Source: Flavobacterium sp. 102
GTDB taxonomy: Bacteria; Bacteroidota; Bacteroidia; Flavobacteriales; Flavobacteriaceae
DNA: 64,000 nt
Direction: 5' to 3'
Assembly (NCBI RefSeq): GCF_003634615.1
Contig: NZ_RBKX01000001.1
Coordinates: forward strand, 620,001-684,000
Positions within the stretch are counted from its first letter, which is position 1; every line of letters begins with the position of its first letter. The notes beneath the pieces were generated by a model. It had not been told where the DNA came from. It did not search any database and saw nothing but the letters and a program-made list of their open reading frames with translations. Of this stretch, positions 1,125 through 52,584 are shown one piece after another. Both the position numbers and the translations under genes were made by a program.

Positions 1125-3023
1125 ATGAGTGACGCAATAAAACACGAATGTGGAATTGCCCTTTTAAGATTAAAAAAACCCTTAGAATTCTACAAAGAAA
1201 AATACGGAACCGCTTTTTACGGCATACAAAAAATGTATTTGCTGATGGAAAAGCAACACAACCGCGGTCAAGACGGCGCCGGATTTGCTTCGATTAAATT
1301 TGACGTTGAAGCGGGTGAAAGATACATCAGCCGCGTGCGCTCAAACAAAGCACAACCCATTCAGGATATTTTTGCGCAAATCAATGAAAGAATTAATGAA
1401 GAACTGACTTTGCATCCTGAATATAATGACAACGTACAATTGCAAAAAGACCACATTCCTTATATAGGCGAATTGTTTTTGGGACATGTTCGTTACGGAA
1501 CTTTCGGTAAAAACAGCATTGAAAGCGTTCATCCCTTTTTACGTCAGAACAATTGGATGCACCGAAACCTTATCGTGGCCGGAAATTTCAACATGACTAA
1601 TGTGACCGAACTTTTCAACAGTTTGGTAGAATTAGGCCAACATCCAAAAGAAATGGCGGATACCGTAACTGTGATGGAAAAAATAGGTCATTTTCTTGAT
1701 GATGAAGTGACCGACTTATATCAAGAATGTAAAAACAACGGCTTATCAAAAAGAGAAGCTTCCCCTATAATAGCTGAAAAATTAGACATTGCCAAAATCT
1801 TAAAACGGGCTTCTAAAGGTTGGGACGGCGGTTATGCGATGGCAGGATTATTAGGTCACGGCGATAGCTTTGTCTTCCGTGATCCGGCTGGCATTCGTCC
1901 GGCGTACTTTTATGAAGATGATGAAATTGTAGTCGTCGCTTCTGAAAGACCTGTGATTCAAACTTCCTTCAACGTCCCTTTCGAAAAGGTACAAGAATTA
2001 CAACCCGGACATGCTTTGATTGTAAAGAAAAACGGAACCGTTTCGCAACAAGAAATCATTACGCCAACAGTAAAAAAAGCTTGTTCCTTTGAACGCATTT
2101 ACTTTTCTCGTGGCAGCGATGCCGAAATCTATCAGGAAAGAAAAGAATTGGGTAAATTAATTTTACCGGCGGTTTTAGATTCAATTGAAAACGATACCGA
2201 CAATACTGTTTTCTCTTTTATACCAAATACGGCTGAAACTTCTTTTTACGGAATGGTAGAAGCAGCGAATGATTTTCTGAACCAAAGAAAGAACCAGTTT
2301 ATTTTGAATAACCGTAAAACGTTAACCAAAGAAAAACTCGAAGAAATTCTTTCGGTAAAAATCAGAACGGAAAAGATTGCTATAAAAGATGCTAAACTAA
2401 GAACCTTTATCACTGAAGATAGCAGTCGTGATGATTTGGTTGCGCACGTTTATGATGTGACTTATGGTGTAATCAAGCCAACAGATAATTTGGTAATTAT
2501 TGACGACAGTATTGTTCGCGGAACGACTTTGAAGAAAAGCATTCTTAAAATGATGGATCGATTGAATCCGAAAAGAATTGTTGTAGTTTCTTCGGCACCA
2601 CAAATTCGTTATCCGGATTGTTATGGGATTGATATGGCTAAATTAGAAGGGCTAGTTGCTTTTCAAGCTGCGATTGAATTGTTGAAAGAGAGAAATCTTT
2701 ATCACATCGTAGACGATGTATATAAAAAATGTAAATCACAAGAGAATTTAAAAGACGCTGATGTAGTGAATTTCGTAACCGAAATTTACGCACCATTTAG
2801 CGACACTGAAATATCGAATAAAATAGCCGAGTTATTGCATCCCGAAGACATTAAAGCTGAAGTAAAAATCATTTTCCAAACTGTTGACAATTTGCACATC
2901 GCTTGTCCGAAAAACCTAGGAGATTGGTACTTTACCGGCGACTATCCAACACCCGGAGGTAACCGTGTTGTAAACAAGGCATTTATGAATTTTTTCGAAG
3001 GTAAAGATGCACGTGCGTACTAA
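1125..3023 (+). CDS. purF: amidophosphoribosyltransferase
   Basis: This enzyme catalyses the first committed step of purine synthesis: glutamine plus PRPP gives phosphoribosylamine. The class-II glutamine amidotransferase domain comes first. Cys9 in HECGI is the likely N-terminal nucleophile after removal of an 8-residue propeptide, and the NRGQDGAG and GHVRYGT motifs follow. The C-terminal phosphoribosyltransferase domain carries the PRPP loop VIIDDSIVRGTT at about residues 456-468. At 632 residues it is longer than typical bacterial PurF (about 470-510). The extra length lies between the two domains and in a C-terminal extension, so it is a long lineage variant rather than a visible fusion. 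It stands alone, not in a pur operon. Confidence 0.92.
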   Translation: MSDAIKHECGIALLRLKKPLEFYKEKYGTAFYGIQKMYLLMEKQHNRGQDGAGFASIKFDVEAGERYISRVRSNKAQPIQDIFAQINERINEELTLHPEYNDNVQLQKDHIPYIGELFLGHVRYGTFGKNSIESVHPFLRQNNWMHRNLIVAGNFNMTNVTELFNSLVELGQHPKEMADTVTVMEKIGHFLDDEVTDLYQECKNNGLSKREASPIIAEKLDIAKILKRASKGWDGGYAMAGLLGHGDSFVFRDPAGIRPAYFYEDDEIVVVASERPVIQTSFNVPFEKVQELQPGHALIVKKNGTVSQQEIITPTVKKACSFERIYFSRGSDAEIYQERKELGKLILPAVLDSIENDTDNTVFSFIPNTAETSFYGMVEAANDFLNQRKNQFILNNRKTLTKEKLEEILSVKIRTEKIAIKDAKLRTFITEDSSRDDLVAHVYDVTYGVIKPTDNLVIIDDSIVRGTTLKKSILKMMDRLNPKRIVVVSSAPQIRYPDCYGIDMAKLEGLVAFQAAIELLKERNLYHIVDDVYKKCKSQENLKDADVVNFVTEIYAPFSDTEISNKIAELLHPEDIKAEVKIIFQTVDNLHIACPKNLGDWYFTGDYPTPGGNRVVNKAFMNFFEGKDARAY

Positions 3024-3080
3024 AATTTTAACATTTTTTGTCTTTAAACGATTTTTGATGCAGTTCGTCTAAATTTTTTG

Positions 3081-3109
3081 TTTGCAAAATGTTAAACCAC
3101 TTACATTTG
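3081..3109 (+). promoter_or_regulatory. Promoter of small RNA copy 1
   Basis: TTTG at 3081-3084, a 17-bp spacer and TACATTTG at 3102-3109 match the Bacteroidota consensus. The conserved RNA block begins about 5 bp after the -7 box. Confidence 0.75.
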
Positions 3110-3113
3110 ACCT

Positions 3114-3190
3114 TACCATAGCATTAGTAGGTTAAGTTTATGGTAGATTTGGGGCAAAAAGGGTGAAAAGAAATTTTCACCTTTTTTATT
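3114..3190 (+). ncRNA. Small RNA copy 1 of a three-copy array
   Basis: A non-coding block of about 77 nt. A 5' hairpin is formed by TACCATA (3114-3120) and TATGGTA (3139-3145). A linker AGATTTGGGGCAAA follows, and then an intrinsic terminator (3156-3187) with a 14-bp stem containing one G-T pair, a GAAA loop and six T residues. It is identical over 78 nt to copy 2. No ORF of useful length lies inside, and promoter, RNA and terminator are spaced as in a free-standing sRNA gene. I cannot assign it to a known RNA family; Rfam Flavo-1 and similar motifs should be tested. Confidence 0.72.
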
Positions 3191-3258
3191 TTCTACAAGC
3201 CTTAGAATCAGCAGAAAAAATTTCAACGATTATACTTGCCGTTCATCTGTTTTATTTT

Positions 3259-3286
3259 TTTGAACACAGTAACTCCTATACTTTTG
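3259..3286 (+). promoter_or_regulatory. Promoter of small RNA copy 2
   Basis: TTTG at 3259-3262 and TACTTTTG at 3279-3286 are separated by 16 bp. The rest of the upstream flank is unrelated to that of copy 1, so the promoter elements are conserved individually. Confidence 0.7.
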
Positions 3287-3290
3287 ACGT

Positions 3291-3367
3291 CACCATAGCA
3301 TTAGTAGGTTAAGTTTATGGTAGATTTGGGGCAAAAAGGGTGAAAAGAAATTTTCACCTTTTTTATT
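3291..3367 (+). ncRNA. Small RNA copy 2 of a three-copy array
   Basis: Same layout as copy 1: the arms ACCATA (3292-3297) and TATGGT (3316-3321), the conserved linker, and a terminator at 3333-3364. Positions 3292-3369 are identical to 3115-3192, while the sequences on either side differ. That indicates recent duplication limited to the RNA unit, or gene conversion. Confidence 0.72.
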
Positions 3368-3469
3368 TTATAAAGGCTGAAAATCATAAAAAAGGCGATT
3401 TCTACTCTCATTTGCCTATCATTCCAATATAATTCAGTTAAAAAAGCACTTTTTCCTTTTTTATGTTGT

Positions 3470-3477
3470 TAAATTTG
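3470..3477 (+). promoter_or_regulatory. -7 box of small RNA copy 3
   Basis: TAAATTTG matches TAnnTTTG and ends 3 bp before the conserved RNA block. I see no good -33 TTTG at the expected distance, so this promoter may be weaker or activator-dependent. Confidence 0.55.
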
Positions 3478-3480
3478 CAC

Positions 3481-3557
3481 TACCATAGTATTTAGTGTAG
3501 GTTAAGTTTATGGTAGATTTGGGGCAAACAGGTGGAAGCAATTCCGCCTGTTTATTT
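3481..3557 (+). ncRNA. Small RNA copy 3 (diverged) of the array
   Basis: The arms TACCATA (3481-3487) and TATGGTA (3509-3515) and the segment AGATTTGGGGCAAA are conserved. The first loop is 3 nt longer than in copies 1 and 2. The terminator stem (3526-3553) has a different sequence, AAACAGGTGGAA paired with TTCCGCCTGTTT, but forms an equivalent hairpin. Paired changes in the stem with a fixed linker indicate that RNA structure is under selection. Confidence 0.7.
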
Positions 3558-3628: not shown

Positions 3629-4237
3629 TTATTTTTCTGTCGCGTATAATCTGGCAACTTCTGTCCAATTGATTACATTGAAGAACGCTTCAATATAATC
3701 GGGACGGCGGTTTTGATAGTTTAAGTAATAAGCGTGTTCCCAAACATCCATTCCTAAAATAGGGAAACCGCCACAAGCTGTATCCGGCATTAATGGACTG
3801 TCTTGATTGGGTGTAGAACAAACTTCCAACTTTCCGCCTTTATGAACACAAAGCCAAGCCCAGCCAGAACCAAAACGTGTTGCGCCAGCTTTGGCAAATT
3901 GCGCTTTGAATTCTTCGAATGATTTAAAATCTCTTTCAATTGCTTCAGCTAATTCGCCTGTTGGCAATCCGCCACCATTAGGCGCCATTACTCTCCAAAA
4001 CAAATTGTGGTTATAAAATCCGCCTCCGTTATTTCTAACTGCTGCGTTTTTCATATCCAAGTTGATTAGGATGTTTTCTATCGTTAAACCTTCCAAATCT
4101 GTTCCGGCAATCGCCGCATTAAGATTGGTTGTATAAGCATTATGATGTTTCGAATGGTGAATTTCCATTGTTTTAGCATCAATATATGGTTCTAATGCAT
4201 CGTATGCATAAGGTAATTGCGGTAATTCAAAAGCCAT
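3629..4237 (-). CDS. sodA: superoxide dismutase, Mn/Fe family
   Basis: Converts superoxide to oxygen and hydrogen peroxide in the cytoplasm. The four metal ligands are visible: His27, His77 (in [11 protein letters not shown]), Asp164 and His168 (in [11 protein letters not shown]). The Gly-Gly-Phe-Tyr context of His77 and Gln145 in [10 protein letters not shown] favour the Mn-type or cambialistic branch over the Fe-type, which carries its active-site Gln near residue 70. The 202-residue length is normal and there is no signal peptide. It is a single gene with its own terminator and upstream -7 box. Confidence 0.93.
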
Positions 4238-51876: not shown

Positions 51877-51931
51877 CAGCCGGCCATTTTCCCGCTATCC
51901 GCTCTACTTCGTGCCGCTTCTATCGGGGCTA
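51877..51931. repeat. REP-like intergenic repeat
   Basis: CAGCCGGCCATTTTCCCGCT, ATCCGCTCTACTTCGTGCCG and CTTCTATCGGGGCT match the general form of a repeat I have seen widely in Flavobacteriaceae intergenic regions (GATAGAAGCGGC...GCGGATAGCGGG on the other strand). It is distinctly richer in GC than the surrounding DNA. Confidence 0.55.
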
Positions 51932-51947
51932 AATTAAAAACCACGGC

Positions 51948-52510: not shown

Positions 52511-52584
52511 GGTCCTATAGCTCAGTTGGTTAGAGCACCTGACTCATAATCAGGTGGTCCTTGGTTCGAGCCCAAGTGGGACCA
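52511..52584 (+). tRNA. tRNA with CAT anticodon (Met or Ile2)
   Basis: A 74-nt cloverleaf. Acceptor arms GGTCCTA and TGGGACC (one G-T pair), D-arm GCTCAGTTGGTTAGAGC, anticodon stem CCTGA/TCAGG, anticodon CAT at 52545-52547, T-arm with GGTTCGAGCCC. The discriminator is A at 52584 and CCA is not encoded. CAT can mean elongator Met or, after lysidine modification, Ile2. C4-G69 and C5-G68 pairs, which favour TilS recognition in E. coli, are present, so Ile2 cannot be excluded. It is not an initiator: the anticodon stem lacks the three G-C pairs. Confidence 0.93.

Follow-up and report, generated by a model that had tools for sequence, protein, structure and literature searches.

Tandem sibling small RNAs of Flavobacteriaceae with predicted antisense contacts at the starts of CAP lipoprotein and peptide genes

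We analyzed a stretch of 64,000 nucleotides (nt) from Flavobacterium sp. 102 (contig NZ_RBKX01000001.1, positions 620,001 to 684,000; hereafter the window) and find three tandem small RNA (sRNA) genes on its + strand, between a purF-like and a sodA-like gene. With a probability of roughly 0.8, these genes would encode co-regulated, trans-acting sibling sRNAs of about 75 nt that occlude the start codons of CAP lipoprotein and peptide genes. The sRNA is predicted to carry a 5′ hairpin (ACCAU/AUGGU) with seed 1 (GUAGGUUAAG) in its loop, then a single-stranded seed 2 (AGAUUUGGGGCAAA), and then a terminator. The partner messenger RNA (mRNA) would present a leader hairpin with an unpaired GCCCC, followed by an open CUUAACCUACU running towards the AUG. 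The sRNA GGGG would dock on the leader CCCC; from there, pairing would extend along the leader to include the start codon and so block initiation. The main partner would be a CAP-domain lipoprotein gene in Flavobacterium and a peptide gene of about 40 codons in several other genera. Since an operator is common to the partner genes and to two of the three sRNA copies, a single regulator probably controls the sRNA and its targets together, which would make a feed-forward loop.

A preliminary description of this DNA had claimed a three-copy array in which every copy has its own TAnnTTTG box (here the -7 box) and intrinsic terminator. The three blocks of about 75 nt lie where they were claimed, and box and terminator are present in 3/3 copies. 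The copies are spaced by 177 and 193 nt. Each block starts with ACCATA (at 3115, 3292, and 3482), 4-5 nt downstream of its box. We placed the predicted transcript starts (3114, 3291, and 3482) from the box position, taking the sigma-A box as -12 to -5, as given in a passage of PMC9723704. The claimed identity of copies 1 and 2 despite differing flanks is borne out, as they are the same from ACCATAG into the terminator T run (98% over 85 nt) and their upstream flanks are unlike. Copy 3 is a diverged sibling that is 88% identical to the other copies over the matched 5′ core; it has the same two conserved segments, and its terminator stem is unlike that of copies 1 and 2. For the 5′ hairpin and terminator of each copy, shuffled sequences folded as well in 0/200, 1/200, and 0/200 cases for copies 1, 2, and 3, respectively.

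3102..3109, + strand: -7 box TACATTTG of copy 1 (sequence)
3114..3188, + strand: sRNA copy 1, predicted transcript (fold z -3.9; covariance model match 95.1 bits)
3127..3136, + strand: seed 1 GTAGGTTAAG of copy 1, in the 5′ hairpin loop
3145..3158, + strand: seed 2 AGATTTGGGGCAAA of copy 1, between hairpin and terminator
3156..3187, + strand: terminator hairpin of copy 1 (fold)
3279..3286, + strand: -7 box TACTTTTG of copy 2 (sequence)
3291..3365, + strand: sRNA copy 2, predicted transcript (fold z -4.0; model match 94.7 bits)
3304..3313, + strand: seed 1 of copy 2
3322..3335, + strand: seed 2 of copy 2
3333..3364, + strand: terminator hairpin of copy 2 (fold)
3470..3477, + strand: -7 box TAAATTTG of copy 3 (sequence)
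3482..3557, + strand: sRNA copy 3, predicted transcript, diverged (fold z -5.6; model match 72.9 bits)
3497..3506, + strand: seed 1 of copy 3
3515..3528, + strand: seed 2 of copy 3
3526..3553, + strand: terminator hairpin of copy 3 (fold)
1125..3023, + strand: purF-like gene, upstream neighbour (open reading frame, ORF; named by eye)
3629..4237, - strand: sodA-like gene, downstream neighbour (ORF; named by eye)

No ORF of at least 60 amino acids (aa) spans the three blocks. We considered the in-frame stretch ATGGTAGATTTGGGGCAA (MVDLGQ) as coding and rejected it. It varies no more at wobble positions than the sRNA does elsewhere, and just 32/38 distinct cores keep the string ATGGTAGAT unbroken. 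Coding therefore does not explain the sRNA conservation, in agreement with the preliminary description. RNAalifold recovered just four base pairs from alignment A2, in which the terminators were not in register.

The conservation of the array RNA is far beyond chance. Performing a BLAST comparison across relatives, as the preliminary description had suggested, we found matches in 47/61 Flavobacterium genomes at E ≤ 0.01, usually as 1-4 copies close together. A covariance model (R1), built from 57 copies, matched 216/249 Flavobacteriaceae genomes (214/246 good ones) and 177/202 genera at E ≤ 0.05, with 1-7 matches per matching genome; the best E-value was 1e-4 or weaker in 5/216 of these. Among 296 genomes of the phylum, 27 had a model match, namely 26/30 listed family members and one genome elsewhere (G077), whose match falls inside a coding frame and was rejected. 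Both seeds, GTAGGTTAAG and AGATTTGGGGCAAA, are almost unchanged in the profile of 38 distinct cores from loci found by BLAST or by the model; in the pattern-selected set of copies, invariance inside GGTAGATNTGGGGCAAA is partly by construction. The -7 box is present in 350/372 distinct sRNA copies. The neighbours are also kept: over 118 named loci, 100 have the purF-like and 92 the sodA-like gene, and the numbers are 46/50 and 40/50 for loci flanked by 2.5 kb or more on each side.

Some related units were seen besides these. One sRNA copy (L121) comes from a metagenome bin that bears the title Lentimicrobium and so falls outside the family, by binning error or transfer. Two other genera have divergent sRNA-like genes (L376 and L391) that keep ACATAAGTAGGTT and AAATTTGGGGC, have a terminator, and differ in the middle. 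Short units in two genera (L375 and L388), with TTGGGGAAAA and then a terminator-like hairpin, are perhaps another related RNA.

In its own genome, the array RNA has weaker opposite-strand matches in two leaders at distant places. The genes behind them are nearly identical (97.6% over 838 bp), and both encode a 164-aa lipoprotein with a CAP domain (PF00188, 54.8 bits).

C1:2624917-2625014: leader match at the own CAP gene L004
C1:2491508-2491605: leader match at the own CAP gene L005

These leaders contain TTTGCCCCACATCTAC twice and then CTTAACCTACTACTATG, with the GCCCC leader hairpin twice in tandem, and their predicted duplex with the sRNA reaches -47.4 kcal/mol. Antisense leaders of the same CAP gene occur in other Flavobacterium as well, where the protein is found in 69/101 genomes. 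Gathering CAP leaders by protein homology and not by complementarity (n=90 distinct; the partial genes of G655 were omitted), we found the site in 66/90 leaders. For the 65 that were picked by motif, the median pairing energy with the core of our copy 1 is -43.2 kcal/mol and the median z is -7.9; in 65/65 of them 0/100 shuffles paired as well. The 66th (L302) was missed by the motif and pairs equally well (-44.6 kcal/mol). The 24 leaders without a site are mostly near random, with the exceptions of L280 (z -4.2) and L341 (z -3.4).

The site is bipartite, with GCCCC in the leader hairpin opposite the sRNA GGGG and CUUAACCUACU..AUG opposite the sRNA loop. Requiring an outer helix of at least 4 consecutive bp, we find CCC unpaired inside the hairpin in 62/64 distinct leaders versus 628/1920 flank-shuffled versions; an earlier criterion, which was defeated by an inner 2-bp pair and was then changed, had given 3/64 leaders, below the shuffles (377/1280). 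The stems themselves vary (TTAAAG/CTTTAA, AAGATA/TATCTT, GTTTACG/TGTAAAC, and AATTTAAG/CTTAAATT). Because seed 1 is looped and its complement open, and seed 2 is open and its complement looped, the sRNA and the leader are mirror images of each other.

The sRNA and the CAP gene also occur together. In 59 Flavobacterium genomes (G034 and G050 were excluded for completeness, and sRNA absence was judged by BLAST with copy 3), 41 have both, 5 the sRNA only, 0 the CAP gene only, and 13 neither (Fisher p 2e-9). Among 15 opposite-strand or off-array places, 6 are CAP leaders, 2 belong to a small protein, and 1 to a peptide gene; one is at a 120-aa secreted-looking protein, one is a leader upstream of a transporter-like ORF, and 4 are unexplained or chance.

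With laxer filters, 38 genomes of other genera, chosen for already having the sRNA, yielded opposite-strand matches in peptide genes. By its sequence, this gene is a putative second partner, unrelated to the CAP gene. It was found at eight loci (L205, L374, L377, L378, L381, L387, L389, and L390) as unannotated ORFs of 30-68 codons, five of them with 40-42, with a C-terminal LT(K/R)K(I/V)FML. At five loci (L205, L374, L378, L387, and L389) the leader is near AGATTTCCCCAAATCTACCATAAACTTAA..ATG, with CCCC in the loop. Most of the peptide loci adjoin frames that we take to be a CoA-transferase subunit and an ABC ATPase. Pfam and NCBIfam models gave no match for the three of the eight peptides tested, and a protein search returned 19 relatives, two of which have a source note, neither naming a function.

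The peptide genes show further complementarity to the sRNA. Those at L377 and L390 have three tandem complementary sites, the last one inside the coding sequence. In the five with the AGATTTCCCCAAATCTACCATAAACTTAA-like leader, the coding sequence (NLPEQPT-like) holds the complementary AATCTACC, and most of them have CAACCTAC or a variant further on, also complementary.

Aligning the 350 of 372 sRNA copies on the -7 box revealed a putative operator of two half-sites, 20 nt apart, with the consensus ~TTnATCGAWTTT at -57 and ~TTCATCTAAAA at -37 relative to that alignment; the direct repeat is TTTCATCGATTTT. It stands before copies 1 and 2 of our array.

3041..3080, + strand: operator before copy 1 (TTTAAACGATTTT .. 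GTTCGTCTAAATT), score 32.3, 0/200 shuffles as high, exact half-site
3219..3258, + strand: operator before copy 2 (TTTCAACGATTAT .. GTTCATCTGTTTT), score 31.9, 0/200 shuffles as high, exact half-site

Upstream of copy 3 (3411-3477) there is no operator (score -6.4, 136/200 shuffles as high); thus, the three copies are probably not expressed alike. Some of the training promoters are also without it (5th percentile -15.1 versus a median of 25.1). To look at the targets, we used a half-site model trained on 173 non-redundant sRNA promoters only, and tested promoters shorter than 100 nt were dropped. The half-site beat 30/30 shuffles in 51/64 promoters of CAP genes with the site (about 2.1 expected), in 6/8 peptide promoters (about 0.3 expected), and in 6/34 small-protein promoters (about 1.1 expected).

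Searching our own genome for TTTMAWCGATTWTNNNTG with at most 1 mismatch gave 27 hits; the reversed control gave 11. Eight hits are exact: two stand before sRNA copies 1 and 2 and two before the CAP genes, three belong to genes whose products look secreted (one of these has leucine-rich repeats), and the last is inside a long frame. As secreted-looking protein genes carry the same half-site, the operator regulon may be wider than the sRNA targets. The secreted-looking proteins of our genome behind a half-site are L394, L400, and L401 (exact) and L403 and L406 (one mismatch); at L401, CCCCCAAATC just before the likely ATG matches seed 2 by eye. A LytTR-type response regulator, a guess suggested by the tandem repeats, may bind the operator.

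The multi-copy trans-acting sRNA family envisaged in the preliminary description thus gains support from the family-wide conservation, the kept neighbours, the -7 box, and the antisense leaders. What is generally expected of trans-acting sibling sRNAs is found here: the sequence gives each copy its own promoter and terminator, and the conserved seeds have complementary sites at other loci. Conservation, complementarity, the leader hairpin, and the shared operator were established computationally, and the support for pairing and operator is strong at that level. From these we infer transcription of the array, repression as the direction, the role of the operator, and the feed-forward behaviour.

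Several observations weigh against pairing-based repression by these sRNAs. In our own genome, the seed-1 complement before ATGAAA is not enriched (3 versus 4 for the reversed control). The site is missing from 24/90 CAP genes, some of them in sRNA-bearing genomes, and the half-site is also present in 13/24 of these site-less CAP promoters (about 0.8 expected), so the operator does not strictly go together with the sRNA site. The co-occurrence table and its p-value ignore phylogeny. The pattern-selected copy set, on which model R1 was mainly built, was chosen by the seed-2 pattern. In 299 genomes of the family, a strict bipartite pattern matched 21 times (2 for the reversed pattern), at the two own CAP genes, at 13 reverse complements of the sRNA, and at six other places. 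Because the own CAP genes were the sole recognised sites, the CAP target seems confined to Flavobacterium, which would leave the invariance elsewhere unexplained. In other genera, 10 of 20 places are unexplained or chance, the rest being 7 peptide genes, 1 other short ORF, and 2 divergent sRNA-like genes; pairing energies at these 20 places are not independent, since they were picked by likeness to the antisense strand. We also tried a small conserved protein (L207) as a family-wide target, inspecting 30 of its 117 places, further places at these loci, and two loci found earlier; it was rejected, as the leader pairs well only in some Flavobacterium. The targets found thus only partly explain the core invariance across genera.

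As one alternative, the CAP and peptide mRNAs, some with two or three tandem sites, would act as decoys, soaking up the sRNA and so keeping it from other targets. Such a sponge would suit the doubled seed-2 complement in our own CAP leaders, the three tandem sites at L377 and L390, and the invariant core in genera where few targets were found. However, in both the CAP and the peptide genes the sites extend as far as the start codon or across it, which a decoy would not need, and the targets share the operator with the sRNA; we consider a sponge improbable. We give less credence still to protein titration, the other option in the preliminary description, in which the invariant AGATTTGGGGCAAA would bind an RNA-binding protein and the copies would sequester it. 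The multi-copy array fits this idea, and so does the family-wide core invariance, which exceeds the need of the few detected targets. But titration explains the matching leaders less well than trans-acting pairing does: they show a bipartite antisense match, in the right order and near the starts, in two unrelated gene families.

Activation of the targets by the sRNA, for example by opening the leader hairpin, appears just as unlikely as titration. Pairing of seed 2 would indeed open that hairpin, and joint control of sRNA and target would go with activation no less than with repression; yet the predicted duplex also extends over the start codon or the nucleotides immediately preceding it, which would normally block initiation. 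Hardly credible at all is that the complementarity has no regulatory meaning, the leaders having arisen by inversion and decay of an sRNA gene copy or being conserved elements of an unrelated kind. The peptide leaders do look much like the reverse complement of almost the whole sRNA core, but the CAP leaders keep both seed complements and fill the remainder with a varying hairpin stem of their own, and the co-occurrence of sRNA and CAP gene and the shared operator also speak against decay. We therefore retain start-codon occlusion by trans-acting sibling sRNAs. For a broader view, we see the chances as evenly balanced: the RNA would be a core sRNA of Flavobacteriaceae with a reciprocal two-part contact and a common direct-repeat operator, heading an ancient feed-forward regulon of the CAP lipoprotein, other secreted proteins, and the peptide of about 40 aa.

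To our knowledge, few trans-acting sRNAs with known targets exist in Bacteroidota. The array RNA is found in most genera of a large environmental family, its partners are readable from the sequence, and they share an operator with it; therefore, direct tests are within reach for control by the sRNA, for its docking on a leader hairpin, and for the regulator. Rfam would gain a family, and a new peptide gene would receive a name.

In line with the preliminary description, which could not place the array in a described family, Rfam showed no family above cut-off there; the 17 weak matches at E up to 10 include FopS. Flavo-1 (RF01705), a flavobacterial sRNA of similar length, was rejected as the identity of the array, since its sole match lies at 51884-51934 (- strand). 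That match is a Flavo-1 RNA in its own right (45.3 bits versus a cut-off of 42), and a transfer RNA lies at 52511-52584 (+ strand). Membership of the FopS family (RF04319) was also rejected, copy 1 scoring 18.7 bits versus a gathering score of 56. RF04319 was above cut-off in 0/99 genomes of the phylum, our own included, and in the control Bacteroides ihuae it was. The two sub-threshold hits among the 99 genomes are L372, which by eye looks like the antisense of a coding start and was dismissed, and L373, a FopS-like RNA (36.4 bits) with TTTTTCATAGGATAAGGTTTAAGGGTTA and a terminator, unlike the array RNA, from a genome that belongs to a different family in the class.

Among the papers found by word searches, titles, abstracts, and passages give no description of the array RNA, the supplementary sRNA tables of F. 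psychrophilum and F. columnare (PMC5395568, PMC5069720) lying outside this coverage; searches by sequence string returned only unrelated matches (cotton microRNA, moths). F. psychrophilum has 85 new Rfp RNAs, and the array RNA may be identical to one of them. According to passages of PMC9723704, Rfp18 of that species is a trans-acting sRNA of strong secondary structure, conserved in Flavobacterium, that pairs through its third stem-loop and affects metalloprotease mRNAs. The array RNA has two stem-loops and is set apart from Rfp18 by description only. In other phyla, Qrr, OmrA/OmrB, and the Neisseria sibling sRNAs have several related copies with a shared function, as outlined in part of PMC11697453, and their likeness to the array is likewise one of description only.

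The closest parallel is with FopS and GibS of Bacteroides, which pair around start codons according to passages of PMC11697453 and PMC7366714. By analogy with these RNAs of Bacteroides thetaiotaomicron, the array RNA would work by pairing at mRNA starts, and such pairing is predicted here, by sequence only, for the CAP and peptide leaders. Multi-copy paralogous sRNAs of about 65-70 nt are described as a feature of FopS, and we find three copies of about 75 nt. Another feature described for FopS is that RbpB binds and antagonises it. The 5′ part is also similar, with CATAGTATTAG..AAGGTTAA in the FopS query printed in PMC11697453 and CATAGCATTAGTAGGTTAAG here. Unlike FopS, the array copies stand in tandem at one locus and have a second, GGGG seed. 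The FopS seed is described as lying in a mainly single-stranded 5′ end, whereas seed 1 of the array RNA lies in a hairpin loop. The targets found here, with SusC start regions outside the search, are CAP lipoprotein and peptide genes, in contrast to the susC-like transporters described for FopS.
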